Notes under the pieces: model-generated
The model's input: the letters and a program-made list of their open reading frames with translations, nothing else
What the model was told of the DNA's origin: nothing
Database searches by the model: none
NCBI RefSeq assembly: GCF_006715045.1
Contig: NZ_VFML01000001.1
Location: 4,432,501 to 4,496,500, forward strand
From: Amycolatopsis cihanbeyliensis
GTDB taxonomy: Bacteria; Actinomycetota; Actinomycetes; Mycobacteriales; Pseudonocardiaceae
Direction: 5' to 3'
DNA length: 64,000 nucleotides
Shown: in pieces, positions 31,269 through 56,193 of the stretch
Layout of the letters: every line of letters begins with the position of its first letter
Numbering within the stretch: position 1 is the stretch's first letter
Made by a program: the position numbers and the translations under genes

Positions 31269-31349
31269 GCGTGTTTGCCCCCCACGTAACCGAGTTTGCT
31301 GTCCACGCGCGTGAGTTTGCCGCTCACGTGCACGAGTTTGCCGTTCCCG
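31269..31349 (+). repeat. 21-bp repeat element, copy A
   Basis: After a GCGT boundary come three full 21-bp units starting GTTTGC(C) at 31273, 31294 and 31315, then a partial fourth (GTTTGCCGTTCCCG) at 31336. Each full unit carries a CACG-centred palindromic core, such as CACGCGCGTG in unit two. By eye, 73 of 81 positions match copy C at 56113-56193, including both boundaries. Confidence 0.8.
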
Positions 31350-31530
31350 TACGGGGCCGCCGCGACCTCCGCCCGGCAACTCGCCACCCTCCGCGAGGTC
31401 GGTAAGCGCCGCGACGTCGCGTTCGGTGCGACGGTCGCCGTGCCGGGACACCAGGGACCGCGCGGGCGGTGCGCTGACGCTCTCCCCGCGCGCGTGGTCC
31501 GGGGCGATCGCGGCGTGGCGGGCGACGCGC

Positions 31531-31631
31531 TGACGTGGGGGGCAAACTCGCCTACGCGAGCGGCAAACTCGGTTACGTGGGGGGCCAACACGGTTACGCG
31601 AGCGGCAAACACGGTTACGTGGGGGGCCAAC
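31531..31631 (-). repeat. 21-bp repeat element, inverted copy B
   Basis: On the minus strand, units begin at 31631, 31610, 31589, 31568 and 31547 (the last partial). Two types alternate: GTTGGCCCCCCACGTAACCG and GTTTGCCGCTCGCGTA..., giving a 42-bp super-period. It faces copy A across ~180 bp of GC-rich DNA in which I see no convincing gene, so A and B form a large imperfect inverted pair. Confidence 0.8.
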
Positions 31632-31639
31632 ACGCCGGG

Positions 31640-31673
31640 GTCGAGCCCGGACCCCCCGAGGTCCGGGCTCGAC
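31640..31673 (-). terminator. Hairpin terminator after the ABC permease
   Basis: GTCGAGCCCGGAC (31640-31652) and GTCCGGGCTCGAC (31661-31673) form a perfect 13-bp stem with an 8-nt loop, 13 nt beyond the permease stop and directly beside repeat copy B. Confidence 0.7.
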
Positions 31674-31686
31674 CGTCCCCCATGCC

Positions 31687-33282
31687 TCAGCCGACGTCGC
31701 GCCTGCGGAAGGCGGTCAGGCCGGCGCCGAGGGCGATCACCGCGAGCGCGGTCAGCCACACCAGCGGCGTCGCGGTGAACTCGCCGCCGGGCAGTTTCGG
31801 GATGTGCGTGAACGGCGAGACGTCCATCAGCAACTGCGGTAGTTGCACCACCGGACCGAACATGCTGATCAGCACGGCGACCGCGAGCACGCCCCAGGCC
31901 GCGACCGAGTACTTCGGCCAGATACCGAAGAGCGCGACGGCGATCCCGACGATCAGCCAGACCGCGGGCAACTGTGCCAGGGTGCCGGTCAGCACGTCCC
32001 CGACGGCGCCGGGGACGTCGTCCACCCGCAGGCCGTGCGCGAGGCCGACCCCGACCCCGCCGAGCACGGTCACCAGCGCGGTGCCGAGGAAGGCGAACAC
32101 CAGGTGGCTCCCGGTCCAGCCGAGCCTGCTGACCCGGGTGGCCAGCAGGGGTTCGGCCCGGTAACCGACCTCCTCGCCGCGCATCCGCAGGGTGGCCTGC
32201 ACCCCGTAGATCGCGGCGATCACGCCGAACATCCCGGTCATCGCGGCGAGGAAGGCCTGGATCATGCCCTCCGATCCGCCCATCCGCGCGAAGATCTCCC
32301 GCGCCTGCGCGCTGTCCCCGATGATGTCGGTGATGCCGCTTGCGATCGAGCCCATCAGCACCCCGGACACCGCGAACGCGACGGACCAGCCGATCAGCGA
32401 TCCCCGGTGCAGCCGCCAGGCCAGCGCGAACGGGCTACGCAGCCCGGGTGCCGCGGTGGCGGGGCCGGGCCGCGACCGGATCAGCCCCGCGTCGAAGTCC
32501 CGCCGGGGCAGCAGCGCGTATCCGGCGGCGCCGACGACCAGCGCGGCGCCCAGCGCGAGCCCGAGCACCCACCAGCGCTCGCCGGCGAACGCCCTGATCT
32601 GTTGCGTCCAGCCGATCGGGGACAGCCAGGACAGCCAGGTCGCCTCGCTGGAGTCCCCGACACCGCGCAGCAGGAAGGTGATGCCGAGCACGGCCGAGGC
32701 CATTCCGTTGGCCGTCCGCGAGTACTCGGCGAGCTGCACGGCAGCCGCCGCGATCGCGGTGAACACCAGCCCGGCCCCCGCGGTGGACAGCCCGAACGCC
32801 CAGGCTCCCGGCACGGCGACCCCCGTGCCCAGCAGGAACAGCGACTGCAGCACACCGATCAGCACGCTGGCGCCACCCGCGACGATCACCCCGGCCGTCA
32901 GCATCGCGAAGCGCCCCACCACGGTGGAACCGAGTAGCTCGCCACGGCCGGTGTCCTCCTCGGCCCTGGTGTGCCGGGTGACCGTGAAGATCGCCATCAG
33001 ACCGATCATCACCGCCATGAACCCGATCAGTCGCCAGGCCAGGAAGCCGCCCGCGGTGGAGAGGTCGAAGGCCGGGCCGTACAGCAGCGAGATCGAGGGG
33101 TTGTTGCCCATCGCGGCGGTCAGCCCGGCCCGCTCGGCCTCGGTCGGGTAAAGCTGCTCGTAGGCGCCCGCCGTGCTGGCCGGCATGACACTGAGCAGGA
33201 CGATCCACAGCGGCAGGATGATCCGGTCCCGGCGCAGCGCGTGCCGCACCAGGTGCCGCGTTCCGACGAGTGGCCTGCTCAT
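31687..33282 (-). CDS. Large ABC-2-type exporter permease
   Basis: A 531-residue membrane protein; its start overlaps the ATPase stop (33279-33282). About twelve membrane segments can be seen in two similar halves, each beginning with a conserved R-x-HR-x(S)-LIxW-type segment ([17 protein letters not shown] near residue 14, [20 protein letters not shown] near 290). This duplicated layout is typical of polyketide-antibiotic-exporter permeases of the TnrB3 type. With the ATPase it probably exports a lipophilic compound. Neighbouring GbsR/MarR control suggests inducible expression. Confidence 0.88.
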
Positions 33283-34196
33283 GCCGTCGCCTCCGTGCTG
33301 TGCCTGCCGGAGGCCTGCTCGGTGTAGTGCCGCAGGAAAAGCTCTTCCAAGGTGGGCGGCTGGCTGGTCAGGCTGCGCACGCCGATCTGGGTGAGCTGCC
33401 GCAGCGCCTCGTCCAGCGCGCTGGTCTCCACGTCGAAGCGCACGGTGTTGCCCTCGATCTTCAGGTCGTGCACGTTCTCCAGCCGGGAAAGGCCGTTCGG
33501 GTGCGCGGCCAGCTCGGCGAAGATCGAGGTGCGGGTCAGGTGGCGCAGGTCGGCCAGCGTGCCGGACTCCACCGTGCGGCCGTTGCGGATGATGCTGACC
33601 CGGTCACACAGCGCCTCCACCTCGGCCAGGATGTGGCTGGACAGCAGCACGGTGCGGCCCTGCTCACGCTCCTCCTGGATCGCGTACTGGAAGGTGGCCT
33701 CCATCAGCGGGTCCAGCCCGGCCGTGGGCTCGTCCAGGATCAGCATGTCCACATTGGACGACAGTGCGGCGACGATGGCGACCTTCTGGCGGTTGCCCTT
33801 GGAGTAGGCGCGGCCCTTCTTCTTCGGGTCGAGATCGAAGCGCTCGATGAGCTCCTTGCGACGGCGCTGGTCGAGTCCACCGCGCAACCGGCCGAGCAGG
33901 TCGATGACCTCGCCGCCGGAGAGGTTGGGCCACAGGCTGACGTCACCGGGCACGTAGGCGAGGCGACGGTGCAGGCTCGCGGCGTCTTTCCACGGATCGC
34001 CACCGAGCAGCCGCACGTTGCCGGAGTCCGGACGCAACAGACCCAGCAGCACCCGGACGGTGGTGGACTTCCCGGAGCCGTTGGGGCCGAGGAAGCCGTG
34101 CACCTCCCCGGGAGCGACATCGAGGTTCAGCCCGTCGAGGGCCTTGGTCCGACCGAACGCCTTGTGCAGGTCGGAAACGGAGATGGCGTTGTCCAT
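33279..34196 (-). CDS. ABC transporter ATP-binding protein
   Basis: A 305-residue protein from ATG 34196. Walker [11 protein letters not shown] near residue 39, signature [15 protein letters not shown] near 133, Walker [16 protein letters not shown] near 155, and switch His in LLSSHIL near 188. It drives the 531-residue permease encoded immediately downstream with a 4-nt overlap. The gene is divergent from a GbsR/MarR regulator, with an operator-like repeat between them. Confidence 0.92.
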
Positions 34197-34216
34197 GCCC
34201 CGGAAGGTACTGTTAT

Positions 34217-34232
34217 TTCACAAACTTGTGAA
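34217..34232. promoter_or_regulatory. GbsR/MarR-type operator
   Basis: TTCACAA (34217-34223) and TTGTGAA (34226-34232) form a perfect 7-2-7 palindrome in an AT-rich island between the divergent ABC operon and regulator gene. Confidence 0.65.
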
Positions 34233-34290
34233 GTTAAGAAAACATATAGATCAGGTGATCAACCCGATCGTGATTGGAGAGGATGGACCC

Positions 34291-34809
34291 ATGTCGATCA
34301 GGCCCCAGTCCCAGCGTGACCCAGGTACCGAGACCGTGCATCGCGACGAGGACGCCGTCCGTCACTACGTGGAGCGGCTCGCGCTCGTGCTGAACGAGAT
34401 CGGTGTGCAGCGGATGTCGGCCCGCGTGTTCGCGACCCTGATGACGACCGACAGCGGCAAGATGACGGCCGCCGAGCTCGCCGAGCAGCTCTCGGTGAGT
34501 CCGGCGGCCATATCCGGTGCGGTGCGGTTCCTCGACCAGATCGGCCTGGTCGCCAAGGAGCGGGAGCCGGGTGCCCGCCGGGACCACTACCGGCTCCAGG
34601 ACGATCTCTGGTACGCCACCTTCCTCAAGCGCGACCGGATGATGACCATGTGGCGGGACGCCACGCTCGAGGGTGTACACGTTCTCGGTCCGGGTACCCC
34701 GGCGGGCAAGCGGCTCGCCGATATGACCGACTTCCTCGAGTTCATGCTCAAGGAGATCCCGGAGTTGTTCGCCAGGTGGAAGGCGCAGCACGAGAGCCAG
34801 CAGCGGTAG
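34291..34809 (+). CDS. GbsR/MarR-family regulator
   Basis: A 172-residue protein from ATG 34291 (GGAGAGGA upstream). The winged helix covers residues ~25-95: RMSARVFATLMTTDSGKMTA, then AELAEQLSVSPAAISGAVRF, and wing REPGARRDHYRL. The C-terminal half is helical (TDFLEFMLKEIPELFARWKA). This arrangement is typical of the GbsR-like group that controls drug exporters in actinomycetes. It is divergent from the ABC exporter operon and probably represses it through 34217-34232. Confidence 0.88.
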   Translation: MSIRPQSQRDPGTETVHRDEDAVRHYVERLALVLNEIGVQRMSARVFATLMTTDSGKMTAAELAEQLSVSPAAISGAVRFLDQIGLVAKEREPGARRDHYRLQDDLWYATFLKRDRMMTMWRDATLEGVHVLGPGTPAGKRLADMTDFLEFMLKEIPELFARWKAQHESQQR

Positions 34810-34849
34810 GTGCGCCGGATGTGCGCCGTGGTTGATGTCCGGCTAATTT

Positions 34850-34864
34850 GATAACTATGTTATC
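34850..34864. promoter_or_regulatory. AT-rich inverted repeat upstream of the FUSC gene
   Basis: GATAAC (34850-34855), TAT, GTTATC (34859-34864), within an AT-rich stretch 47 nt upstream of the FUSC-type gene. It could be an operator or promoter element. Confidence 0.45.
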
Positions 34865-34910
34865 GCTACGGCCGGCCATGGCCGTACCCGGCTGAGTCGC
34901 GGCTTCCCGT

Positions 34911-36824
34911 GTGAGTATGGGTGCCGTGACCAGTACCGATTTCGCGGCGCCGCACTGGCTGGTCCAGCTCCTGCGCAGCACGCCGGAGCCGACGCCGTGG
35001 AACCGGGTGGTACGCGCCGCGCTGGCGCTGGCCGGGCCTCCCGCGGTCGGGTTCGCCCTGGGTGACCTCGCCCTAGGCGCGCTGGTGTCGACCGGCGCGT
35101 TGCCCACCGTGCTGGCCGACTCGGCGGGCTCCTACCGCTACCGCGCCGTGCGGCTCGGCGGCGCCGTGCTGGCCGCCACGCTCGGCTTCGGTACCGGCCT
35201 GCTCACCGGCTGGGCCCCGGTGCTGTCCATGCTCGCCGTGGTCGGGGTCGCGGCGGTCTCGGCGCTGATCAGCACCGCGGGCAGCAACGCCTCGGTGGCC
35301 GGGCTGCAGTTGCTGGTGTTCGCGGTGCTCGGCACCGGGCAGCACGCCATGAACATCGACCCTGGCGTGGCCATGCTCTGCTTCCTCGGCGGGGCCGCAT
35401 GGGGGCTGCTGGTGGCGCTGGCCGCGTGGGCGGTGCGCGCGACCTCCCCGGAGCGCGGCGCCGTGGCGCAGGTGTACATCGAGCTCGCCGCCATGCTCTC
35501 CGCCCAGGACGACGAGACCCGCCGCGCGTCCCGGTACCAGCTGACCACCGCGCTGAACACCGCCTACGACCGGCTGCTGGAGGCGCGATCCTGGTTGTCC
35601 GGCCGGGACGCGACCTACCGCGGGCTGCTCAACCTGCTGGCCGCGAGCACCCCGGCCGTGGAGGCCGCGGTGGCCATGGTGAACGCCAGGCGGCACGCCC
35701 CGCCCGAGCTGGTGGACCACCTCACCGCCGTGGCCACCTCGGTGCTCGCTCGCGCGCCGCTGCCGCCCGCGCCCGCGGCCGAGCCCGCGGATCCGGCGCT
35801 GGCCGCGCTGTACGCGGGTCTGGCCAGGATCGACAACGGGACCGAACGCAAGCGCAGCGAGCGCGTGCCGGTTCGTACCCAGCTACGCGAGTGGGCGGAC
35901 TCGGTGATCTCCGGCCCGCTCACCTGGCTGACCACGCTGCGGCTGGTGCTGTGCGTGGCGCTGGCCGAGGTGGCCGCGTTGCTGGTGCCGGTCGAGCGTT
36001 CGTACTGGATCACGCTGACCGTGGGCATCGTGCTGAAGCCGGACTTCGGTTCGGTGTTCGGCCGGGCGGTGTTGCGCGGGCTCGGCACCGTGGTCGGCGT
36101 CGGTATCGGCGCGGCCGTGCTCGGGCTCGGGGTGCACGGCTGGGCGCTGGTGCTGCTGATCGCGCTGTTCGCCGGTGGGGTGGCCGCCGGCAAGACCCGC
36201 AACTACGGGATCCTGAGCGCCTTCGTCACCCCGCTGATCATCTTGCAGATGGACCTCGCCAGCCGGGGCGACTGGGCGCTGGTGTTCGCGCGGCTGGTGG
36301 ACACCCTGATCGGCTGCGCGATCGTGTTGGTGTTCGGCTACCTGCTGTGGCCGGGCAGCAGGCGCCCCCGGGTCGGCGGGAAACTGGCCGAGGTCGCCGA
36401 CGCCGTTGGCCGCTACGTGGAGCACGGGCTGCGGGCCACCGGCTCGGCCGACCAGCGGGCGGAGCGTTCCCGCTACCGCCGCCGTGCCTACCGCGGGCTG
36501 ACCGACCTGCGCACCGCTTTCCAGCAGGTCGTGGTCGAGCCCTCGCCCGCGGGCAGGCAGGCGACCGCCTGGTGGCCCGCGATCGTCGGCCTGGAACGCG
36601 TCACCGACGCGGTGACCGAGGTCGTGGTGACCGTGGAGCAGGGTGCCCCGGAGCCGGACCCGGAGGATGTGCGACTGCTCACCGTGGCGCTCGCGGAGTT
36701 CGCCGCCGCCGTTCGCGAGCAACGTGAGCCCGCCGACCAGCGGTTACCCGCCGCGCAACAGCTTGCCGGGGTGGTCGAGCAGGTGGCGGCCGCCTTCGCG
36801 GCGGTACGCGGCCCGCGGGGGTGA
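34911..36824 (+). CDS. FUSC-family (aromatic acid exporter-like) membrane protein
   Basis: A ~637-residue protein; GTG 34911 or ATG 34917 may be the start. It has two membrane clusters (residues ~35-165 and ~340-485) separated and followed by soluble helical regions. This is the duplicated half-repeat layout of FUSC/YccS-type proteins. The second cluster carries SYWITLTVGIVLKPDFGSVF and RVLARGLGT-like residues (LRGLGTVVGVGIGAAVLGLG). It is presumably an efflux carrier for aromatic or amphipathic acids; the substrate is unknown. It stands as a single gene. Confidence 0.82.
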   Translation: MSMGAVTSTDFAAPHWLVQLLRSTPEPTPWNRVVRAALALAGPPAVGFALGDLALGALVSTGALPTVLADSAGSYRYRAVRLGGAVLAATLGFGTGLLTGWAPVLSMLAVVGVAAVSALISTAGSNASVAGLQLLVFAVLGTGQHAMNIDPGVAMLCFLGGAAWGLLVALAAWAVRATSPERGAVAQVYIELAAMLSAQDDETRRASRYQLTTALNTAYDRLLEARSWLSGRDATYRGLLNLLAASTPAVEAAVAMVNARRHAPPELVDHLTAVATSVLARAPLPPAPAAEPADPALAALYAGLARIDNGTERKRSERVPVRTQLREWADSVISGPLTWLTTLRLVLCVALAEVAALLVPVERSYWITLTVGIVLKPDFGSVFGRAVLRGLGTVVGVGIGAAVLGLGVHGWALVLLIALFAGGVAAGKTRNYGILSAFVTPLIILQMDLASRGDWALVFARLVDTLIGCAIVLVFGYLLWPGSRRPRVGGKLAEVADAVGRYVEHGLRATGSADQRAERSRYRRRAYRGLTDLRTAFQQVVVEPSPAGRQATAWWPAIVGLERVTDAVTEVVVTVEQGAPEPDPEDVRLLTVALAEFAAAVREQREPADQRLPAAQQLAGVVEQVAAAFAAVRGPRG

Positions 36825-36902
36825 CGGCACGCTCGCCATGTTGCGAGATCCGGCTGGTGCGGTTTGATGGGTAGTGTCGCGTATGTGAAGTGAGGAGTTC
36901 CG

Positions 36903-37148
36903 ATGGGAATCAACTTCGGCGAGATGAAGCAGAAGGCTCAGGAACAGCTGGGCAAGCACAGCGACAAGGTGGAGCAGGGGCTGGACAAGGCGGGCAAGTT
37001 CGCCAAGTCCCGGTTCGGCGACCACTCCGAGAAGATCGACAACGCCACCCGGAAGGCCAAGGACGCGCTGCACCGCGGCGCGGGGGATGAGGGCAAGGAG
37101 CCGCCGAACGACCAGGGTGGCGGCCAGCGGCCACCGCAAGGCCAGTAA
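36903..37148 (+). CDS. MT0933-type antitoxin-like small protein
   Basis: An 81-residue, strongly charged helical protein from ATG 36903 (GAGGAG-type site). The pattern MKQKAQEQLGKHSDKVEQGL followed by DKAGKFAKSRFGDHSEKID matches the MT0933/Rv0909 antitoxin-like family, whose tail is Gly/Gln-rich. No toxin gene is adjacent: upstream is the FUSC gene and downstream a convergent prephenate dehydrogenase. It may act independently, for example as a stress-associated protein, so the name should not be read as proof of a toxin-antitoxin pair. Confidence 0.75.
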   Translation: MGINFGEMKQKAQEQLGKHSDKVEQGLDKAGKFAKSRFGDHSEKIDNATRKAKDALHRGAGDEGKEPPNDQGGGQRPPQGQ

Positions 37149-37155
37149 CAGCCGG

Positions 37156-38133
37156 CTACGCCACCTCGCCGAGCGCGGTGCTGCCGTCGATCCCCACGAT
37201 CCGGCCGCCGCGCTCGCCGAGCGCGCACAGGCCGTCCCGGGCGTCCGGCGCGGCCAGGCTGACCTGCACCGCGGCCCGGGCGGCACCGCGCAGGTCGGCG
37301 ATGCGGCGCGCGCCCTCGTGCCCGGCGTTCAGCGTGGCCGCCAGCCCTCCGGTGGAGGCCAGCGAGCCGCGGGCCGCCCCCAGCCTGCCGAGCGCCTCGT
37401 CCAGCACCGGCAGCAACGCCTCCCGGTTGCCCTCGGTCATCGCCCGCACCAGCTCCGGCCGGCTGCCGGCCACCCTGGTGCCATCGGTGAAGGACCCGGC
37501 GGCCAGTGACGCGGCCAGCGGGCCGCCGTAGGCTCCGGTCGCGGCGAGCACGGCCGCGAGCAGGTGCGGCAGGTGGGAGATCCGGGCGACGGCCTCGTCG
37601 TGCACGGCCGCCGCCACCGGCACCACGTGCGCGCCGAGTTCGATCGCCAGGGTGGACACCTCGGCCCAGGCCGCCAGGTCGGTGTCCGGTTCCACGCAGG
37701 CCACCCAGGCCGCGCCCGTGAACAGGGCCGGGTTGCCCGCGGCCCAGCCGGAGGAGGTCCCGCCTGCCATCGGGTGCCCGCCGACGAACCGGGCGCCCGG
37801 GGCCAGCCGCCGCACGGATGCCAGCACGGGCGCCTTCACGCTGGTCACATCGGTCAGCAGGCAGGAGGGCGCCTGCTCGGCCACGAGCCGTAGCACCTCG
37901 TCCAACCCGGTCAGCGGCACGGCGAGCACCACGATCGCGTCCCGCTCGGCCGCCTTGCGTAGCGCACCCGCGACGTCGGTGCCCACCTCGTAGCCGTCGG
38001 CCACGGCCGTCTCGGCATCCACCGCGGACTCAGTGGCGCCCCAGGTCGTCCTGCCGCCGGCGCTCGCGGCCCGCAACAGGGAGCCGCCGATCAACCCGAG
38101 TCCGATCACGCAGACATCTCGCACGAGCGACAT
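37156..38133 (-). CDS. tyrA: Prephenate dehydrogenase
   Basis: A 325-residue enzyme from ATG 38133. The N-terminal Rossmann domain has GLGLIGGSLLRAA near residue 11. The substrate region shows FVGGHPMAGGTSSGW near 120, and SHLPHLLAAVLA near 200 contains the conserved His used in catalysis. It converts prephenate to 4-hydroxyphenylpyruvate with NAD(P)+ in tyrosine biosynthesis. Length is in the family range for a short form without an ACT domain. It ends 8 nt from the convergent antitoxin-like gene. Confidence 0.92.
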   Translation of the reverse strand: MSLVRDVCVIGLGLIGGSLLRAASAGGRTTWGATESAVDAETAVADGYEVGTDVAGALRKAAERDAIVVLAVPLTGLDEVLRLVAEQAPSCLLTDVTSVKAPVLASVRRLAPGARFVGGHPMAGGTSSGWAAGNPALFTGAAWVACVEPDTDLAAWAEVSTLAIELGAHVVPVAAAVHDEAVARISHLPHLLAAVLAATGAYGGPLAASLAAGSFTDGTRVAGSRPELVRAMTEGNREALLPVLDEALGRLGAARGSLASTGGLAATLNAGHEGARRIADLRGAARAAVQVSLAAPDARDGLCALGERGGRIVGIDGSTALGEVA

Positions 38134-38170
38134 CTTGCCGTATCGGGCAAACCCCGTGGAGTACACCAAC

Positions 38171-39409: not shown

Positions 39410-39480
39410 ACCTTCGATAGTCGCATTCCCGGACGGCTTGAGGCATTGCGCGTGCTTTCGGCGGACGCGCGGCATACGGT

Positions 39481-39969
39481 GTGCGCATGGCGGTGAAGGA
39501 GCCGATCACGGGGTTCGCGGCGGCCGTGATCCGCGAGGACGGGCGATGGCGGTGCAGCCCGCTGGACGCCGCTGCGCTCACCGAGCTGGATGCCGCGATC
39601 ACCGAACTGGGCAAACTGCGTTCGACCGGCGCGGTGTTCGGTCTGCTCGCCGTGGACGACGAGTTCTTCGTGATCGTCCGGCCGAGCCCGAGGGGCGCAT
39701 CCCTGCTGCTCTCGGACGCGGCGGCGGCGCTGGACTACGACATCGCGGCCGATGTGCTGGACCTGCTCCGGGTGGACCCCCCGGACGAGGAGGACGAGGC
39801 GGTGTGGCCGGAGGGCGACCTCGAGGTGCTCGCCGACCTCGGCCTGCCCGGGGTGGAGATGCAGGTGATCGTCGCCGATGTCGACCTGTATCCGGATGAG
39901 CAGCTACAGATGGTCGCCCAGCGTTGTGGCTTCGGTGAGCAGTTCACCGCCCTGCTCGACGAGCTCTGA
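39481..39969 (+). CDS. tRNA adenosine deaminase-associated protein
   Basis: A 162-residue protein, start GTG 39481 or ATG 39487. The pattern GFAAAVIREDGRWRCSPLDA, EFFVIVRPSPRG and LGLPGVEMQVIVADVDLYPD matches the actinobacterial protein regularly encoded just before tadA. It is acidic and soluble. Its biochemical role is unknown; its conserved position suggests it assists TadA or shares its regulation. It ends 6 nt before the tadA start. Confidence 0.88.
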   Translation: MRMAVKEPITGFAAAVIREDGRWRCSPLDAAALTELDAAITELGKLRSTGAVFGLLAVDDEFFVIVRPSPRGASLLLSDAAAALDYDIAADVLDLLRVDPPDEEDEAVWPEGDLEVLADLGLPGVEMQVIVADVDLYPDEQLQMVAQRCGFGEQFTALLDEL

Positions 39970-39975
39970 GCGTCG

Positions 39976-40945: not shown

Positions 40946-40949
40946 CACT

Positions 40950-44952: not shown

Positions 44953-44954
44953 GG

Positions 44955-48643: not shown

Positions 48644-48838
48644 GGTGGCGATTCCTTCGTGGGTTACCTCGGTAGGGGGTCCGCCTTTCGTACCAAAGGG
48701 TTACCCCGCGGGGACAGCCCCGAGTGAGCTGAGTCGTGGACTCCCTAATCCCCTAACGCCCACCCGTTCGGGTGCCGTGGCAAGCACGGGGACGAGCCCC
48801 GATGTGCCGGACACCCCCGACTTCTAGCGTCGTCCACG

Positions 48839-48864
48839 GCGTTCGGCGGCCGGCCGCCGAACGC
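48839..48864. promoter_or_regulatory. Perfect 26-bp palindrome upstream of iniB-like gene
   Basis: GCGTTCGGCGGCC (48839-48851) is followed directly by its exact complement (48852-48864). It lies 30 nt before the iniB TTG start. It may be an operator for the IniR-like protein or a leader hairpin. Further up, 48747-48766 holds the short direct repeat CCCTAATCCCCTAACG. Confidence 0.6.
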
Positions 48865-48894
48865 TCCCACCCTTCCCGTTCAAGGAGACTTCCG

Positions 48895-50160
48895 TTGCAG
48901 AACGCCGACCAGACCCTGCACGACTTCGTGCTCACCCTGCTGACCGACGCCACCGCCCGGTCCGGCTTCGCCGAGGACCCCGCCGCGGCGCTCGCCGGAG
49001 CCGGCCTTTCCGACGTGACCGCGCAGGACGTCCAGGAGGTCGTCCCGCTGGTGCTGGACTATGCCCAGCTACCGGCCCAGGTGCCGGGGATGGACTCGCT
49101 GGACGGGGCCGAGCTGCCCGCGGGCGGCGCCGCGGACGCGATCGAGCAGCTGCGCGCCGTCGCGGAGGCGGCCGGTGCCCCGGACGTGGGCAGCTTCACC
49201 CTGTCCGGTGAGGGCAGCGCGGACGGCTTCACCGGCGTGGGCGGCGTGCGCAGCGAGACCTTCGAGGCCGGTGCGGACGCCGACCTGACCGGCAGCCTGA
49301 GCGGTGTCGCCGGGGGCGTCAGCGGCGGTACCGGCGAGGCCGGCGCGTTCCAGGCCGGCGCGGCCGCGGGCCCGGACGGGCTCACCGCGGACGGCGAGTT
49401 CGGCAACGCGCAGGTCTTCGGCACCGGGTACCTCGCCGCGGGCACCGGGGGTGTCGCCGCCGGGTTCGAGGTGGCCGGCACGGGCTTCTCGGTCGAGGGC
49501 GGCGGCGCGGGCACCACGGAGGAGTTCGCGGTCGGTGGTGCCACGATGTCCCCGCTCGGCGACTACGGCTTCGAGAGCGCGGGCGAGTTCGGTGAGCTCG
49601 GCGACATCGACCTGGACACCGAGGCGCTCGGCCGGGGCGGCGAGGCCGCGGGTGGCACCGTCGCGACCTACGTGTCCTCCGGCGGGCAGGCCTTCGCCGA
49701 CGGCGTGTCCACCGGGGCGGAGACGGTGAGTGGCCAGCTCGAGGACGCCGGCGCGGGTGAGGCCGCGGACGCGGTGCGTACCGGCGCCGACGCGGTGTCC
49801 GGGCAGGTCTCCTCGGCTACCGCCGAGGTGCCGCAGCCGGACGACCTCACCGGCCGGCTGGAGGACCTGCCCGCCGCCGAGGTGCCGGACACCGGCGCCC
49901 TGCCGGAGCTTCCCGAGCTGCCGGAACTGCCTGACCTGGCCGGCGCGCTGCCGGGGGAGCTGCCCGAGCTGCCGGTGGCCAACCCGCTGCCGGAGATGGA
50001 CCTGCCCGCGTCCGACCCCGCCGCGGCGACCGAGAAGGTGACCGACACCGTGACCGACACGGTCGGCGACAGCCCGCTGGGCCAGGTCACCCAGAACTCC
50101 GCGGCGGCTGACCTGCCCAACCCGTCCGGTGTGGTCGACGACCTGAGCCTCGGCGGCTGA
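48895..50160 (+). CDS. IniB-like Gly/Ala-rich protein
   Basis: A 421-residue protein starting at TTG 48895, with AAGGAG eight bases upstream. Residues ~1-60 form the conserved IniB N-terminal domain (LHDFVLTLLTDATARSGFAE, DPAAALAGAGLSDVTAQDVQ). Residues ~90-270 are Gly-rich and Ala-rich, and ~310-380 contain Pro/Leu/Glu repeats (LPELPELPELPDL). In mycobacteria IniB accompanies the dynamins IniA and IniC and is induced by cell-wall inhibitors. A strong hairpin separates it from the next gene. Export cannot be judged: there is no classical signal peptide. Confidence 0.85.
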   Translation: MQNADQTLHDFVLTLLTDATARSGFAEDPAAALAGAGLSDVTAQDVQEVVPLVLDYAQLPAQVPGMDSLDGAELPAGGAADAIEQLRAVAEAAGAPDVGSFTLSGEGSADGFTGVGGVRSETFEAGADADLTGSLSGVAGGVSGGTGEAGAFQAGAAAGPDGLTADGEFGNAQVFGTGYLAAGTGGVAAGFEVAGTGFSVEGGGAGTTEEFAVGGATMSPLGDYGFESAGEFGELGDIDLDTEALGRGGEAAGGTVATYVSSGGQAFADGVSTGAETVSGQLEDAGAGEAADAVRTGADAVSGQVSSATAEVPQPDDLTGRLEDLPAAEVPDTGALPELPELPELPDLAGALPGELPELPVANPLPEMDLPASDPAAATEKVTDTVTDTVGDSPLGQVTQNSAAADLPNPSGVVDDLSLGG

Positions 50161-50174
50161 TCCTCTCGCGGTTC

Positions 50175-50210
50175 GAGCCGGGCCCACCCAGCTCGAGGTG
50201 GGCCCGGCTC
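50175..50210 (+). terminator. Strong hairpin between iniB-like and iniA-like genes
   Basis: GAGCCGGGCCCACC (50175-50188) and GGTGGGCCCGGCTC (50197-50210) form a perfect 14-bp stem with an 8-nt loop, 14 nt after the iniB stop and followed by CTTCACC. It may set a lower level for the dynamin genes. Confidence 0.7.
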
Positions 50211-50266
50211 CTTCACCGGCTGTAAACGGGGACACTCGGCTCGATGAGTCTTAGGCGAAGAGGGCT

Positions 50267-52063
50267 ATGACCGCACCCCCGTGGCTCGATGTGCTCGATG
50301 ACACGGTCCGGGCCTGCGCCACCCACCGGCGCCCGGACCTGGCCCAGCGGTTGCGGGAAAGACGTGCCCAGCTACTGGACGGCCAGCTGCGGGTGCTGGT
50401 CCTCGGTGAGGCGGGCCAGGGCAAGAGCCAGCTGGTCAACGCCCTGGTCAACGCGCCGGTGTGCGCCACGGGGGACGACCAGACCACCACCGTGCCCGCG
50501 GTCGTCCGGCACGCCGACCGCCCGGCCGCGGTGCTGGTCACCGAGGAGGAGGCCGGTGAACCGCCCGCGCTGGAGGCCACCGCTGGCAGGCGGACCGTGC
50601 CGATCGAGTCGGCGACCGCGCTGGCCAACGGTGAGCCGGCTGGTGGCGTGCTGCGCGCCGAGGTCGGCCTGCCCCGGAAGCTGCTGTCCACCGGGCTCGC
50701 GCTGATCGACACGCCTTCCGCCCCGGACCCCACCACGTTGCCCCCGGCCGACGCGACTTTGCTGGTCTCCGACGCCACCCGGGAGCTGTCCGCGGGTGAG
50801 CTGGACCTGCTGGCCGGGGTGGTCGAGCTGTGTCCGACCGTGGTCGTCGTGCTGACCAAGATCGACCTGGTGCCGAACTGGCGGCGGGTGGCCGAGCGTA
50901 ACCGGGCCCGGCTGGCCAGGGACGGGCTGCGGGCGCCGGTCGTCCCGGTGTCGGCGAACCTGCGGCTGGCCGCCGCCCGCGACGGGGACCGGGTGCTGGC
51001 GACCGAATCCGGCTTCGGCGAGCTGATCCGGCTGTTGCGCCAGGATCTCGCCGGGCAGGCCGAGCTGCTGGCCCGCCGCTCGGTGACCGCCCTCGCCGGG
51101 TTGGCTGTCGAGCAGCTGGTCGAGCAGGTGCGCGCCGAGTACACCGCGACCCAGCACGCGGACACCGGGGAGCTGACCGCACGCTGGCACGCCGCGAGCC
51201 GGGAGCTGGAACGGCTGCAGCGCGAATCGGCCCGGTGGCAGACCCTGCTCTCCGACGAGGTGGCCGACCTGACCTCCGATGTGGAGTTCGACCTGCGGGA
51301 GCGGACGCGCCGGATCCTGCACGAGGTGGACGACTACTTCGACGTCGCGGACCCGGCGAAGAACTGGCCGGAGTTCGCGGAGTGGTTGCGGGAGAACCTG
51401 ACCACCGTGGCCGAGACCAACTCCGGCTGGTTGCTCGACCGCTTCGACTGGATCGCCCGCAGGTTGTCCCGGTTGGTCGCGCGGGACACCGCGGACGCGC
51501 CGTCCGACTCCGCGGCGCGGGACGGAGCCCTCGACCACGTCGGTGAGCTGCGGATGCCCGCCGTGGAACGGTTCGGCATCGGGCAGAAGCTGTTCGTCGG
51601 GATGCGCGGTTCCTACAGCGGCCTGCTGATGTTCGGGCTGGCCAGCACGGTCGCCGGCCTGACGCTGATCAACCCGATCTCCATCGGTGCCGGGGTCGCG
51701 TTCGGCGCGAAGAGCGTGTTCGAGGAGCGTGGCAACCGGCTCAAGCGGCGCCAGTCCGCGGCGAAGAACGCGGCGCACCGCTACGTGGACGACTTCTTCC
51801 TCGGGTACGGCAAGCACAGCAAGGACACCACCCGGCTGATCCACCGGGCCCTGCGCGACCGGTTCGCCGGCGTGGCCGAGGAACTGCGGGCGGAGATCTC
51901 CGAGTCCGCCAAGGGGGTCAAGCGACTCATCGACGCCGAGGCCACCGAGCGCGCGGCGCGGGCGCAGCGGCTCAAGCTCGGCATGGACGAGCTGACCCTG
52001 CTGCGCAGGCGGGTGCACGCGCTCGGCACGGTCCCCGGCGCGCGGCGTGAGCTGACCGCGTGA
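50267..52063 (+). CDS. IniA-like dynamin-family GTPase
   Basis: A 598-residue protein from ATG 50267. GTPase motifs: G1 GEAGQGKS at 47-54, G3 DTPS at 148-151 (Gly replaced by Ser), and G4 TKID at 197-200. Long helices of the stalk/bundle follow, with a hydrophobic hairpin near residues 451-481 (LLMFGLASTVAGLTLINPIS) that would insert in the membrane. Mycobacterial IniA is a bacterial dynamin that acts on membranes under envelope stress. It overlaps the iniC-like gene by 4 nt. Confidence 0.88.
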   Translation: MTAPPWLDVLDDTVRACATHRRPDLAQRLRERRAQLLDGQLRVLVLGEAGQGKSQLVNALVNAPVCATGDDQTTTVPAVVRHADRPAAVLVTEEEAGEPPALEATAGRRTVPIESATALANGEPAGGVLRAEVGLPRKLLSTGLALIDTPSAPDPTTLPPADATLLVSDATRELSAGELDLLAGVVELCPTVVVVLTKIDLVPNWRRVAERNRARLARDGLRAPVVPVSANLRLAAARDGDRVLATESGFGELIRLLRQDLAGQAELLARRSVTALAGLAVEQLVEQVRAEYTATQHADTGELTARWHAASRELERLQRESARWQTLLSDEVADLTSDVEFDLRERTRRILHEVDDYFDVADPAKNWPEFAEWLRENLTTVAETNSGWLLDRFDWIARRLSRLVARDTADAPSDSAARDGALDHVGELRMPAVERFGIGQKLFVGMRGSYSGLLMFGLASTVAGLTLINPISIGAGVAFGAKSVFEERGNRLKRRQSAAKNAAHRYVDDFFLGYGKHSKDTTRLIHRALRDRFAGVAEELRAEISESAKGVKRLIDAEATERAARAQRLKLGMDELTLLRRRVHALGTVPGARRELTA

Positions 52064-53490
52064 GTGCGGCGCTGGCGCAGCGCACGAGGGGCCTGCTGGA
52101 GCAGGCGCTCGAGCTGTACCGCGACAGCGGGCGGGCCACCACCTGGCTGCGACGGCACCTTGCCAGGCTGGACGACCCGCTGCGGCTGGCCGTGCTGGGT
52201 CCGCAGGGGTCCGGCAAGTCGACGCTGGTGAACGCGCTGGCCGGGGAGCAGGTCGCGCCGATCGAGCTGGCGGGCGGGCAGCCGCCTGCCTGGTACCGGG
52301 CCGCGCCGGAACCGCGGGCGGTCGGCTACCCGCGGTCCGCGCCGCCGTTCGAGCTGGCGGTGCGGCGCGCGGACCAGGCCGTGTGGCTGGACGGCGAGGC
52401 GCCGCCGGCGCCGGTGGACCGGGTGGAGCTGGACTGGCCGAACCGCGCGCTGCGCGAGCTGACCCTGGCGGACACCCCCGGGACGGACCTCGCCGAGGCG
52501 GCGCCCGTGGTGGAGGGGGTCAGCACCGAGGCCGACGCCGTGCTGTTCCTGCTGCCCAACCCGGCGCGGGCCGACCTCGGTTTCCTGCGGGCGACCCGCC
52601 AGCACCCGATCGCGCGGGCGGCGCCCGTGCATGCGCTCGCGGTGCTGTCCAGGGCCGATGAGCTCGGCGGCGGCAGGGTGGACGCGCTGATCTCGGCGCG
52701 GCAGGTCGCCCGGCGGCACCGCAGGGAGACCGAGGCAGGCCTGCTGTGCCAGGACGTGGTGGCCGTCGCCGGGCTACCGGCGGCGGCGGGCCGGACCCTG
52801 CGGGAGCCGGAGTTCGCGGCACTGGCCGAGCTGGCTCGGGTGCCGAGGACCGAGCTGGAGCCGTACCTGCTGTCCGCGGACCGCCTTGCCGGGCCGGACT
52901 TTCCCGCCCCGGTGGACCCGGGTACCCGCGCGAGGCTGCTGGAGCGGTTCGGGCTGTTCGGGGTGCGGCTGGCGAGTGCCCTGCTGCGCCGCTCGGCGGT
53001 CAGCCAGGCCGAGTTGGCCGCGCGGTTGGTGGCGCGCAGCGGGCTGGACGAGCTGCGCGAGTCCGTCGGTCGCAATTTCACCGGTCGCCGGCCCGCGCTC
53101 AAGGCCCGGTCGGCGCTGATCGCGCTGGAGGTCGTGCTGCGGATGGAGCCGCGGCCGGGGTCCGCCGCGCTGGCCGCCGAGCTGGAACGGGTGCTCGCCG
53201 GGGCGCACGAGTTCCGCGAGCTGCGCACCGTCGCTGAGTTGCGCGCGGGCAGGGTCACGCTGCCCGGGGAACTACTGGCCGAGGCGGTGCGCCTGCTCGG
53301 CGACGAGGGCGAGACCCCGCAACGGCGTCTCGGCCTCGACCCCGCCGCCGGGGAAGGGCCGTGCCGGCAGGCCGCCGCCGAGGCCCTGCGCCGCTGGCAG
53401 GAACAGGCCGAGAACCCCGCGCTCCCGGCCGTCACCCGCCGTACCGCCCGCACCGTCATCCGCACCTGCGAGGCACTCTGCTGCGCGTGA
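52060..53490 (+). CDS. IniC-like dynamin-family GTPase
   Basis: A 476-residue protein from GTG 52060, overlapping the iniA-like stop. G1 GPQGSGKS at 47-54 and G3 ADTPGTD near 138 are intact. The usual G4 N/TKxD reads SRAD (VLSRADELGG near 195), so guanine specificity may be altered. No membrane hairpin is evident. It is shorter than IniA, as in mycobacteria, and probably forms a hetero-complex with the IniA-like protein; that is inference. Confidence 0.85.
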   Translation: MSAALAQRTRGLLEQALELYRDSGRATTWLRRHLARLDDPLRLAVLGPQGSGKSTLVNALAGEQVAPIELAGGQPPAWYRAAPEPRAVGYPRSAPPFELAVRRADQAVWLDGEAPPAPVDRVELDWPNRALRELTLADTPGTDLAEAAPVVEGVSTEADAVLFLLPNPARADLGFLRATRQHPIARAAPVHALAVLSRADELGGGRVDALISARQVARRHRRETEAGLLCQDVVAVAGLPAAAGRTLREPEFAALAELARVPRTELEPYLLSADRLAGPDFPAPVDPGTRARLLERFGLFGVRLASALLRRSAVSQAELAARLVARSGLDELRESVGRNFTGRRPALKARSALIALEVVLRMEPRPGSAALAAELERVLAGAHEFRELRTVAELRAGRVTLPGELLAEAVRLLGDEGETPQRRLGLDPAAGEGPCRQAAAEALRRWQEQAENPALPAVTRRTARTVIRTCEALCCA

Positions 53491-53598
53491 CCCGCGTTCC
53501 GTGCGGTAGCGCTCGGTAACCGTTGTGCGCATGTCTTCCGTCGTTCACTCGTCTGGGTAAGGATGCCCCGAACGCACATTGCGAGGAGAGGACAACCC

Positions 53599-56076
53599 GT
53601 GACCCTGCCGGTAAGACGTGGCGCCCTCGCGGGTGCCGCCGCTGTCACCATGACCCTGAGCCTGGTCGCCGCCCCCTCGGCGCAGGCGGAGCCGAGCACC
53701 GGCGCGGTGATCGCCGAGGTCTACGGCGGTGGCGGCAACTCGGGGGCCACGCTGACCCATGACTTCGTCGAGCTGGCCACGGTCGGCGATGCCGAGGTCG
53801 CACTGGACGGCTGGAGCGTGCAGTACCTGCCGGCCGCGCCGAGCGAGCGCAGCCGGTGGCAGGTCACCGAGCTCACCGGCGGCGTCCGGCCGGAGGGTCG
53901 TTACCTGGTCCGCCAGGCCCAGGGGGCGGGCGGCTCGACTCCGCTGCCGGAACCGGATGCCAGCGGCCGGATCGCGATGAGCTCCCGGGCAGGCACCGTC
54001 GCGCTTGTCGACGGCGGCGAGCGGCTGACCTGCCTGACCGCGGCGGACTGCGCCGCGGACGCCCGCATCGTGGATCTTGTCGGTTACGGCGACGCCGTGG
54101 TCCGGGAGGGATCGCCCGCCCCGGGCACGGGCAACACCACCTCGGTCGCCCGCACCGAGCCCGCGGACACCGACGACAACGCCGCGGACTTCACCGAGGG
54201 CGAGCCGAGCCCGCGCAACGCGGCGGGGGAGACCCCGGGCGGGGAGGAACCCGAGCCGGTCACCGCCCGGATCCACGACATCCAGGGCAGCACCCGGATC
54301 TCCCCGCTGGACGGCGAGCGGGTCACCGGGGTCACCGGGGTGGTCACCGCGACCAGGACCTTCGGCTCCAGCCGCGGGTTCTGGTTCCAGGACCCGCGAC
54401 CGGACCAGGACCCGCGCACCAGCGAGGCCCTGTTCGTCTACACCGGCGACGCCGGGTTCGAGCTGTCCCCCGGCGACGCGGTCACGGTGAGCGGCACGGT
54501 CAAGGAGTACTACCCGGACTACGCGGAGGACTCGAAGTACCAGTCGCTCACCGAGCTCGGTAACGCGGAGTGGACGGTGACCTCCTCGGGCAACCCGGTC
54601 CCGGCGGCGGAGGTGATCGGTCCGGACACCGTGCCGGAGGAGCTCACCGCGCGGCCGGGCGGCAACATCGAGCCGCTGGAGCTGAAGCCGGACACCTACG
54701 CGCTGGACTTCTGGGAGGCGCGGGAGAGCGAGCGGGTCAGCGTCACCGACGCGCGGGTGGTCGGGCCGAGCACGCGGTACAACGAGCTGTACGTGACCAC
54801 GAAACCGGAGCAGAACCCCAGTGCCCGCGGCGGCACCGTGTACCTCGGCTACGACCGGCCGAACACCGGGATCCTCAAGGTGGAGTCGCTGATCCCGTTC
54901 GCCGAGCGGCCGTTCCCGCGGGCGAACACCGGGGACACCCTGTCCGGCCGTACCGCAGGCCCGGTCGAGTACGACCAGTACGGCGGGTACACCCTGTTCG
55001 CCGGCGAGCTCGGCACGGTGACCGACAACGGGCTGGAGCGCGAGACCACTCGCGAACAGCGCAGCGGCGAGCTCGCGGTGGCCACCTACAACCTGGAGAA
55101 CCTCTCCGCGGTCAACGACCAGGCCAAGTTCGACGAACTGGCCCGCGGCATCGTGCGCAACCTGGCCAGGCCGGACATCGTCACGCTGGAGGAGATCCAG
55201 GACGACAACGGCCCGGACGGCCGGGGTGACGGCGTGGTCGGTGCGGAGGAGACGCTGCGCAGGCTGGTCGAGGCGATCGTGGCCGCGGGCGGTCCGCGGT
55301 ACGAGTGGCGGCAGATCGACCCGCGGGATCTCACCGACGGTGGCCAGCCGGGTGGCAACATCCGCGTCGGCTTCCTGTTCAACCCGGAGCGTGTGTCCTT
55401 TGTGGATCGTCCAGGTGGGGACGCGAGCACGCCGGTCGAGGTGGTGACCGAGCACGGCGAGCCGCGGCTTTCGGTCTCACCGGGCCGGATCGACCCGGCC
55501 GACGAGGCGTGGGAGAACAGTCGCAAGCCGCTGGTCGGTGAGTTCGTCTTCGGCGGCCGCACGGTGTTCGTGGTGGCCAACCACTTCGCCTCCAAGGGCG
55601 GCGACGAGCCGACCCACGGCCGCTTCCAGCCGCCGACCCGGAGCTCAGAGGTGCAGCGGATCGAGCAGGCGCGGGTGGTGCGCGCCTTCGCCGACGAGCT
55701 GCTGGCGGCCGACCCGGAGGCCAACCTGGTGGTGGCCGGCGACCTGAACGACTACCCGTTCTCCCCCGCGGTGCGCACGCTGACCGAGGGCGGCGCGCTG
55801 GAAGCGCTGATGAGCACGCTGCCGGAGCACGAGCGGTACAGCTACATCTACGAGGGCAACTCGCAGGTGCTGGACCACGTGCTGGTCTCGGACGCCCCGC
55901 GCGGGGTGGACTACGACGTGGTGCACATCAACGCGGAGTTCGCCGACCAGGCCAGCGACCACGACCCGCAGGTGGTCCGCTTCCGCCCGAGCACCGGAAA
56001 CCCGGTGGCGGACGCGCTGAACGACCTGCTGGACTGGCTGGAGCGACTCCTCGGCCGCCCGCCGCACCGCTCGTGA
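53599..56076 (+). CDS. Large secreted nuclease (ExeM/NucH-like)
   Basis: An 825-residue protein from GTG 53599, with GAGGAGAGG upstream. Residues ~1-31 are a signal peptide (AAAVTMTLSLVAAPSAQA). Residues ~35-180 resemble a lamin-tail domain (AVIAEVYGGGGNSGATLTHD). Residues ~215-420 contain an OB-type segment (GVTGVVTATRTFGSSRGFWF). Residues ~490-800 are an endonuclease/exonuclease/phosphatase fold: VATYNLENLS, IVTLEEIQDDNG, FVVANHFASKGGD, VVAGDLNDYPFSP and SDHDPQVVRF supply the metal and catalytic residues. It probably degrades extracellular DNA. It is a single gene. Confidence 0.92.
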   Translation: MTLPVRRGALAGAAAVTMTLSLVAAPSAQAEPSTGAVIAEVYGGGGNSGATLTHDFVELATVGDAEVALDGWSVQYLPAAPSERSRWQVTELTGGVRPEGRYLVRQAQGAGGSTPLPEPDASGRIAMSSRAGTVALVDGGERLTCLTAADCAADARIVDLVGYGDAVVREGSPAPGTGNTTSVARTEPADTDDNAADFTEGEPSPRNAAGETPGGEEPEPVTARIHDIQGSTRISPLDGERVTGVTGVVTATRTFGSSRGFWFQDPRPDQDPRTSEALFVYTGDAGFELSPGDAVTVSGTVKEYYPDYAEDSKYQSLTELGNAEWTVTSSGNPVPAAEVIGPDTVPEELTARPGGNIEPLELKPDTYALDFWEARESERVSVTDARVVGPSTRYNELYVTTKPEQNPSARGGTVYLGYDRPNTGILKVESLIPFAERPFPRANTGDTLSGRTAGPVEYDQYGGYTLFAGELGTVTDNGLERETTREQRSGELAVATYNLENLSAVNDQAKFDELARGIVRNLARPDIVTLEEIQDDNGPDGRGDGVVGAEETLRRLVEAIVAAGGPRYEWRQIDPRDLTDGGQPGGNIRVGFLFNPERVSFVDRPGGDASTPVEVVTEHGEPRLSVSPGRIDPADEAWENSRKPLVGEFVFGGRTVFVVANHFASKGGDEPTHGRFQPPTRSSEVQRIEQARVVRAFADELLAADPEANLVVAGDLNDYPFSPAVRTLTEGGALEALMSTLPEHERYSYIYEGNSQVLDHVLVSDAPRGVDYDVVHINAEFADQASDHDPQVVRFRPSTGNPVADALNDLLDWLERLLGRPPHRS

Positions 56077-56086
56077 GCCGGCGCGA

Positions 56087-56117
56087 CACGCCGAGCGCAC
56101 CTCCCGCGCTCGGCGTG
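56087..56117 (+). terminator. Hairpin after the nuclease gene, fused to repeat copy C
   Basis: CACGCCGAGCGC (56087-56098) and GCGCTCGGCGTG (56106-56117) form a perfect 12-bp stem with a 7-nt loop, 11 nt after the stop, followed by TTTGCC. Its last five bases overlap the start of the repeat element. Confidence 0.75.
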
Positions 56118-56193
56118 TTTGCCGCCCACGTACGCGAGTTTGCCCTCCACGCGCGTGAGTTTGCCGCCCACGTACGCGAGTTTGCCGTTCCCG
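56113..56193 (+). repeat. 21-bp repeat element, copy C
   Basis: GCGT, then units at 56117, 56138 and 56159 and a partial unit GTTTGCCGTTCCCG at 56180. Units one and three are identical; unit two differs in its core (CACGCGCGTG in place of CACGTACGCG). The copy has the same architecture and boundaries as copy A at 31269-31349. Confidence 0.85.

Follow-up and report, generated by a model that had tools for sequence, protein, structure and literature searches.

The window analysed here, a stretch of 64,000 nucleotides from Amycolatopsis cihanbeyliensis (contig NZ_VFML01000001.1, positions 4,432,501 to 4,496,500), holds three short arrays of 21-bp units, copies A, B and C. Together with the DNA between the first two and a hairpin at the third, they are as follows:

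31271..31354, plus strand: copy A, four 21-bp units in unit register (unit scan)
31355..31528, no strand: stretch between copies A and B, compared by eye with locus L431 of G001, a close relative
31529..31633, minus strand: copy B, an array of five units (unit scan and gene calls)
56085..56119, plus strand: strong hairpin with a 14-bp stem and a 7-base loop
56115..56198, plus strand: copy C, four units (unit scan and gene calls)

Copy A starts 14 bp past the stop codon of a luciferase-like monooxygenase gene (30201-31256; Pfam PF00296 and gene calls), while copy B lies 53 bp past the stop of a minus-strand gene (31687-33249), its tail facing copy A across 174 bp. Copy C is flanked by the convergent genes 53650-56076 (plus strand) and 56209-56574 (minus strand). 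A preliminary description of this DNA had counted 73 identities in 81 positions between 31269-31349 and 56113-56193, and had placed each copy behind the 3' end of a plus-strand gene, facing that of a minus-strand gene. The count is exact for an ungapped alignment, and the gene calls agree with the placement, copy B intervening at copy A. Nine ungapped placements of copy A reach at least 48/81 in the window, each within or overlapping A, B or C, and the best score against B is 61/81. In G001, an array is also present at the place of copy C (locus L392), and the place orthologous to 31355..31528 (locus L431) holds, by eye, about 1.3 kb of extra DNA that presumably carries a regulator-like gene. 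Parts of the A. cihanbeyliensis stretch resemble remnants of this extra DNA, again as judged by eye.

Within each unit, a 9-bp core (GNGTTKGCY) is nearly invariant, whereas the remaining 12 bp, the spacer, vary. Exact three-unit matches number 239 in the 7.4-Mb A. cihanbeyliensis genome and 174 in G001, with none for a reversed-pattern control in either. The set studied comprises 125 arrays from 98 regions of the A. cihanbeyliensis genome, which is a partial sample rather than a full census. With more than 100 arrays in the genome, and not only the copies of the window, the element is indeed defined and dispersed, as had been proposed. The core-to-core spacing is 21 bp in 327/335 pairs in A. 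cihanbeyliensis (four more being 42 bp), in 216/232 in G001 and in 99/117 at loci of other genomes. Of the fixed boundaries that had been suggested, the left one holds, since position 2 of the first unit is T in 88% of 110 arrays with at least three units, while the right one is looser. The suggested fixed unit number has to be abandoned: arrays have two to nine units, four being the mode (52/129 arrays in the 98 regions), and the number differs between the two species in 27 of 45 orthologous array pairs. The A. cihanbeyliensis set includes 85 single arrays and 17 head-to-head pairs, all 17 with a centre of 11-13 bp. A 12-bp centre is not a universal phase, however, since centres elsewhere (head-to-head or tail-to-tail, judged by eye) are 2, 8, 9, 11, 12, 14 and 16 bp. 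In 20 regions of G001, the 49 solitary cores do not exceed the 50 of the reversed-pattern control.

Placement is strongly biased. Rather than lying at random within genes, 118/125 arrays are outside predicted genes, and the 106 clusters that they form are divided into 52 convergent, 42 codirectional, 5 divergent and 7 overlapping a gene call. The enrichment at convergent junctions for which the preliminary description had proposed a test is borne out, with 52/99 classifiable clusters vs 72/388 (18.6%) of background junctions; in other genomes, 14/22 classifiable clusters are convergent, or about 12/20 without the G001 loci. Stop codons are 25 bp or less from an array end in 58/71 single arrays, starts in 3/71. 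In codirectional gaps with at least 100 free bp, 11/15 arrays begin no more than 25 bp past the stop, where 1.7 would be expected.

Positions behind stops and at convergent junctions are also what would be expected of a transcription terminator or 3'-UTR element, the arrays acting as RNA that ends or stabilizes transcripts. In its favour, the head-to-head pairs are strong hairpins (mean folding z -6.7, 17/17 below -2), single arrays fold slightly better than shuffles in antisense (mean z -1.19, 20/78 below -2) and a strong hairpin precedes copy C, its 3' arm extending into the first core. However, single arrays in sense fold like shuffles (mean z -0.10, n=78) and more weakly than coding controls (mean energy -28.4 vs -36.5 kcal), no stem-like covariation was found in 348 distinct unit pairs, in which the largest pairing excess (z 3.9, positions 18-23) is not a stem, and an Rfam scan of the whole window at the gathering score returned two tRNAs only, with no match at the arrays. 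The RNA structure for which the preliminary description had proposed a covariance test is unsupported for single arrays in sense. No terminator-like site was found in 56000-56300, the one stretch scanned for this purpose, and all eight arrays lying antisense to the genes on either side follow replication instead of those genes. Taken together, a terminator role appears unlikely for the family, although some arrays may have an RNA role, given the antisense folding of singles and the hairpins of the head-to-head pairs. Two narrower candidates were discarded. A per-unit RNA hairpin, CGTGAG-TTTGCCG-CTCACG, fits some units well, yet no excess is seen of the base pairs that it requires, and sense singles fold no better than shuffles. 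A terminator hairpin before the arrays reaches z<-2 in 3/25 arrays far from a co-oriented stop and in 0/46 near one, copy C being an exception whose hairpin is unusual among single arrays. The arms of head-to-head pairs have spacers no more alike within a pair than between pairs (0.397 vs 0.403).

The arrays are polar with respect to replication in A. cihanbeyliensis, where 59/78 single arrays are co-oriented with it, compared to 327/597 genes (55%), and where the orientation switches near dnaA. The same holds for 29/38 single arrays at convergent junctions, although genes are balanced in orientation there, and codirectional gene pairs have 15 sense and 0 antisense arrays when leading but 6 sense and 8 antisense when lagging. 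These figures would suit a replication-polar architecture signal, akin to KOPS/AIMS or a polar fork barrier, arrayed at gene ends. Such a role nevertheless seems highly improbable, because the bias is strongest near the origin, with 26/30 in the nearest 1 Mb, and weak at 8/12 past the 2-Mb mark of contig 1, head-to-head pairs have no direction, only 24/40 G001 singles point with replication (p=0.27, not significant; 10/14 in the first Mb) and at least five matches were found in just 11/297 genomes of the family sample, from 5/46 genera (by eye). The orientation, clear in A. cihanbeyliensis only, suggests that the replication fork is where copies come in or undergo selection.

Comparison of A. 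cihanbeyliensis with G001, to which it is about 90% alike in aligned regions, points to conserved positions and changing contents. Array positions are kept in both species in 37/44 judged clusters, the G001 DNA having mostly been chosen for its arrays. Spacer mismatch is 0.30-0.38 by unit in orthologous arrays, and 0.279 over 31 aligned pairs vs 0.170 in other intergenic DNA. Core conservation between species was weighted weakly, being partly circular (units were found via the core in both genomes); without the core-based filter, five usable clusters have mismatches at 8/120 core, 85/240 spacer and 216/1596 flanking positions. Turnover is not complete, since orthologous units retain some vertical likeness (0, 30 and 0 of 2000 permutations for the first, second and last unit). 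Some sites are filled in one species and empty or short in the other: seven A. cihanbeyliensis clusters have no array in G001, four of them being short gaps, with no clear target duplication by eye. Spacers show genome-specific dialects. Of the 80 loci listed in a contig search, 11 hold at least three cores at 21 bp, of which eight belong to Amycolatopsis or Pseudonocardia; the other three lie outside, in a Cytophagaceae MAG (L043), another MAG (L045) and a Paracoccaceae MAG (L094). L043 and L045, long minisatellite-like runs of nearly identical 21-bp units selected by pattern, are taken as chance likeness. The first search pattern had no matches in genome contigs. Viral contigs gave five stretches with one two-unit match each and no three-unit match, and copy A had no match to phages and plasmids at E 1e-5.

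The patchy distribution, the sites that hold an array in one species but are short in the other, the dialects within genomes and the avoidance of starts and genes would all fit a purely selfish repeat that persists where it is harmless, has no host function and is bound by its mobilizer alone. This is possible, if doubtful: stop adjacency in long gaps (11/15) exceeds what promoter avoidance would readily give, the 37/44 kept clusters (in G001 DNA mostly selected for arrays) sit uneasily with it, and no mobilizer was found. A RAYT/REP system was rejected since the Y1 transposase profile PF01797 had 0 matches in A. cihanbeyliensis at the threshold used, at which control matches occur in 5/14 named genomes. 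Another candidate was a DUF222 (13E12-like) mobile element that would have spread the arrays as its left-end part. Eight arrays have in common their right end, GGGGAA, and the adjoining DNA, over about 1.55 kb in some copies, with homology beginning at the array, and PF02720 (DUF222) matches lie inside four of the eight. However, this is one subfamily of 8/125 arrays, and the eight best DUF222 genes (L344-L351; counted in A. cihanbeyliensis only) have no array within about 1.5 kb on either side. It was rejected as the general mobilizer, and an origin of the arrays in such an element is scarcely credible. By eye, the subfamily has an HNH-like end.

The best reading is that the arrays are an undescribed, non-palindromic extragenic repeat family working like BIMEs, in which a putative protein would read the DNA. 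To the description as a dispersed, non-autonomous, polar extragenic repeat family of Pseudonocardiaceae, putatively read by protein, we would give a probability of about 50%. The core may be recognized as double-stranded DNA by a trans-acting protein, with the 21-bp period, two helical turns, placing all cores on one side of the helix, as in plasmid iterons. Such recognition would preserve the core, leaving spacers to drift into dialects specific to each genome, and might underlie spread, homogenization or both. Arrays would be tolerated at gene ends because promoters are rare there, gene ends with converging transcripts might gain from a complex bound to the arrays, and copies may come in or be selected at the fork. 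More tentatively, the arrays could form a helically phased, iteron-like and fork-oriented platform at transcript ends, maintained and spread by a putative dedicated protein with genome-specific spacer dialects. If so, they would parallel REP/BIME without being palindromic and with a different enzymology.

Several known systems invite comparison. CRISPR loci have repeats of ~23-47 bp separated by unique spacers about as long, as well as cas genes, whereas the arrays have 9-bp repeats and 12-bp spacers of one style common to many loci. DNA uptake sequences occur as many solitary copies genome-wide, unlike the cores in the 20 G001 regions. MIRU, BOX and RUP are internally modular small repeats interspersed in bacterial genomes, from which the arrays appear to differ in unit length and words. 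Like MITEs, the arrays are short, non-autonomous and dispersed, with filled and empty sites, but no terminal inverted repeats are seen in single arrays on inspection (in the 17 head-to-head pairs, the two arms are inverted around a centre) and no parent transposase was found. Plasmid iterons are origin-linked direct repeats, 17-22 bp long, whose conserved cores lie on one helix face; the arrays share the direct repeats, core and helical phasing but differ in being more than 100 dispersed chromosomal arrays. A further parallel is REP/BIME, which bind gyrase, IHF or Pol I; REPs have a palindromic unit of 20-40 bp and GTAG/CGTC end tags. In two reports, these elements lie behind coding regions, between convergent or unidirectional genes (PMC3733652), and are regularly spaced, protein-binding, species-specific motifs (PMC2817692). 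The arrays are likewise high-copy, extragenic, convergent or codirectional and rarely divergent (5/106 clusters). However, their unit is not palindromic, as seen in the sense folding and covariation (the antisense z of -1.19 pointing the other way), they are mostly direct repeats, and the genome has no Y1 match at the threshold used, in contrast with RAYT systems. The intergenic TAACTGA heptamers of Beggiatoaceae are also direct repeats, but lie mostly just upstream of start codons in the genome described in PMC4679880, whereas the present arrays lie behind stops and have a different core word. A literature search, with subscription journals outside its coverage, found no paper naming the arrays among those listed, and a search for the string GAGTTTGCC gave no title on them among the matches listed. 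Among dispersed extragenic repeats in bacteria, the best known are palindromes linked to RAYT or IS transposases, in part according to PMC2817692. The present family is non-palindromic and without a RAYT as far as was found, yet numbers more than 100 arrays, and in several genera it retains its nine-base word and its period of two helical turns, mostly at stops. Because many positions are common to both species while unit sequences are largely replaced, it offers a natural experiment on the copying and homogenization of short repeats, and a clear starting point for finding a new protein that binds or copies DNA.

A position-matrix unit scan resolved three arrays of 21-bp units in the window, each unit consisting of a 9-bp core (GNGTTKGCY) and a 12-bp spacer:

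31271-31354 (in unit register), + strand, copy A, four units
31529-31633, - strand, copy B, five units
56115-56198 (in unit register), + strand, copy C, four units

Ungapped comparison of A (31269-31349) with C (56113-56193) gave 73 identical positions out of 81, the same figure as in the preliminary description, and the nine placements of copy A with at least 48/81 matches in the whole window all lie in or overlap A, B and C. The window is C1:4432501-4496500, and the whole 7.4-Mb genome in two contigs (C1 and C2) holds 239 matches to the exact three-unit pattern and none to the reversed pattern, which bears out the idea of a dispersed element. Places among the matches listed by several searches were clustered into 98 regions, in which the position matrix found 129 arrays with two or more units (reversed control 0), at least 125 after removal of overlaps between regions. 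Three further three-unit places on C1 (2477830, 2572257 and 2953483), seen by eye among the matches listed up to 2.95 Mb, lie outside this 125-array set.

The unit consensus is G-[AT]-G-T-T-[TG]-G-C-[CT] followed by 12 variable bases, and neighbouring cores less than 60 bp apart are spaced by 21 bp in 327/335 cases in this genome, 216/232 in the close relative G001 and 99/117 at other loci. In the 110 arrays with three or more units, first units start with GTG (T in 88%) and last units with GAG (A in 85%), positions 10-12 of the latter tending to GTT; arrays are thus polar and their units have positional identity. The unit number, previously described as fixed, ranges from 2 to 9 with a mode of 4 (129 arrays) and differs in 27/45 orthologous pairs. 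As for architecture, 85 arrays are single, 17 head-to-head pairs surround a centre of 11-13 bp (12 bp in 13/17), four arrays form tail-to-tail pairs (including A with B) and two are in tandem. A linker, CSCAGSTC, lies at most 26 bp before the array in 15/78 singles; among 553 gene ends taken to lack an array it occurs at four, of which two turned out to be array loci. A stretch like GAGTTGGTCAAGTTNCGACT, possibly a further shared module, stands right of four single arrays (C1 1240392, 4991177 and 4564872; C2 1050074). At several right ends (e.g. C1 880096 and 2619370, C2 566873), the last unit finishes with GTTGACGTACGG or a close variant and (T/C)CAAC comes next, an inverted repeat, overlapping in some cases the opposing gene's stop codon. 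A strong 14-bp hairpin (56085-56119), the inner part of which is also found in G001, directly precedes copy C, and a similar one precedes the array at C1 2241503.

Placement was assessed with a simple codon-usage gene caller made for this analysis. Rather than being scattered within genes, 118/125 arrays lie outside called genes, and the preference for convergent junctions suspected from A and C extends to the genome: of 106 clusters, 52 lie at convergent and 42 at codirectional junctions, 5 are divergent and 7 overlap a called gene, versus 72/388 convergent among background junctions in the window and 20 G001 regions. Among the 71 singles that overlap no gene, leaving out a subfamily of eight arrays with the common right end GGGGAA, a stop codon lies within 25 bp of an array end in 58 and a start codon in three. 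Where a codirectional gap leaves 100 bp or more free, the array starts within 25 bp of the stop in 11/15 cases (1.7 expected). Arrays antisense to both neighbours often abut the next gene's stop with their right end, which is at most 11 bp from it in 6/8. In other genomes, 27 clusters from 27 hand-picked loci comprise 14 convergent, 7 codirectional, 1 divergent and 1 overlapping, with 4 at locus edges; without three G001 loci, 12/20 classifiable clusters are convergent.

In this genome, singles tend to be oriented with replication. With dnaA at C1:3998276 and the direction of contig 2 taken from synteny with G001, 59/78 singles outside the GGGGAA subfamily are codirected with replication over both contigs, compared with 327/597 genes in the same regions; the count is 49/61 on contig 1 and 29/38 at convergent junctions. 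Between codirectional genes, 15 sense and no antisense arrays occur on the leading strand, versus 6 and 8 on the lagging strand (Fisher p 0.0007). Two results speak against such a link: on contig 1, the bias is strongest near the origin (26/30 within 1 Mb, 15/19 at 1-2 Mb and 8/12 beyond 2 Mb), and it is weaker in G001. In that genome, where the count covers the first 100 places listed, the origin was set by synteny and three arrays with known short partner arrays were left out, 24/40 singles follow replication (p=0.27), with 10/14 in the first Mb. All six testable GGGGAA copies are oriented against replication.

An RNA structure, raised as a possibility in the preliminary description, is not supported for single arrays in sense. 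Singles folded in sense have a mean z of -0.10 (z < -2 in 9/78, z > 2 in 3), versus -1.19 in antisense (z < -2 in 20/78) and -0.33 for coding controls (3/78), and in 348 distinct unit pairs no run of covarying pairs makes a stem, the top Watson-Crick excess being z 3.9 at positions 18-23. Head-to-head pairs do fold strongly (z < -2 in 17/17) because their cores are inverted, but their spacers are not more alike within than between pairs (0.397 vs 0.403 for unit 1, 0.554 vs 0.471 for unit 2), which argues that the arms are not maintained for pairing. Solitary cores in 20 G001 regions show no enrichment (49 vs 50 in the control). Together, these results are read as favouring recognition of the arrays as DNA.

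Comparison with G001 (alignment identity about 84-94%) suggests that positions are often retained. An array is present in G001 at 37 and absent at 7 of the 44/106 clusters with both flanks in the G001 DNA compared, and conversely 32/60 G001 array loci have a partner in the DNA compared here, with an array in 31 and none in one (L372); these shares are biased since, of the 80 G001 stretches compared, 60 were picked for holding arrays and 20 because a partner had previously not been found (4 present and 7 absent in the latter).

Arrays absent from G001
C1 5757971, short gap, 87 bp here vs 4 in G001
C1 5056765, short gap, 105 bp here vs 5 in G001
C1 5855172, short gap, 146 bp here vs 30 in G001
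C2 68940, short gap, 70 bp here vs 13 in G001
C2 415807, one unit left
C1 5921400 and C2 562845, other DNA in place

In the window, copy C has a counterpart in G001 (L392), and the gene upstream of copy A is followed there too by an array and then by further DNA (L431), of which 31355-31528, between A and B, is likely to be a remnant. Spacer mismatch is lower in orthologous (0.30, 0.38 and 0.31 for first, second and last units) than in non-orthologous arrays (0.37, 0.42 and 0.50), so some vertical likeness is left. Nevertheless, in 31 aligned pairs spacers diverge by 0.279, versus 0.170 for other intergenic DNA and 0.189 for third codon positions (0.103 for cores, a figure biased low), and in five equal-length clusters spacers differ by 0.354 and flanks by 0.135. 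Shared places, unequal unit numbers and diverged spacers thus indicate that contents are largely replaced. A genome-wide shift at core position 2 (A in 87/171 units here vs 31/166 in G001) looks like homogenisation within genomes.

By eye, array stretches of two genomes of the genus (G079 and G062) are identical to those in Amycolatopsis xylanica and Amycolatopsis sp. RYN_118 records (loci L168/L064 and L166/L063), making Amycolatopsis the probable genus. The three-unit pattern occurs in 10/80 genomes of the genus, most often in this one, with G001 (174) and G031 (25) next in number, and in this genome alone among 396 sampled across the phylum (15 of the same order, this one being the sole family member; one genome gave a single reversed-control match). 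A looser two-unit pattern is present in 59 of 297 family genomes, mostly with one or two matches, which could be chance level; at least five matches, and as many as 244, were counted by eye in eleven genomes of five genera, this one included, with arrays inspected in part. Spacer style differs in every genome examined: CACGTA/CACGCG here, CACGTCGGT in Amycolatopsis sp. GM8 (where tail-to-tail pairs have, by eye, an 8-bp centre), CCCGCACGC in A. xylanica and GACCTCCCGCGC in Pseudonocardia oceani. Three non-actinobacterial loci with three or more cores were found among the 80 matches listed in the genome_contigs scan. Two of them, L043 and L045, from MAGs outside Actinobacteria, are long runs of near-identical 21-bp units, also with GAGTTTGCY, and look like plain minisatellites.

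The eight GGGGAA loci of the 125-array set (L252, L253, L255, L261, L276, L278, L335 and L338) are copies of a longer repeat that reaches about 1.55 kb. Large internal deletions occur in some copies, and every copy opens with an array; arrays can therefore move as part of a larger element. Four match PF02720 (DUF222), three of them in degenerate form; no array lies within roughly 1.5 kb either side of the eight best DUF222 genes of this genome. The family does not fit ordinary MITEs, since singles have, on inspection, no terminal inverted repeats. At the seven clusters without a G001 array, four of them short gaps, no clear target-site duplication was visible by eye. Nor are these REP sequences, since the unit is non-palindromic and the genome has no match to the Y1 transposase (PF01797). 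Iterons, MIRU, KOPS, DUS and CRISPR served as further comparisons. The arrays are classed as a family of dispersed extragenic repeats in its own right, a new one, that resembles BIMEs in place and probable use.
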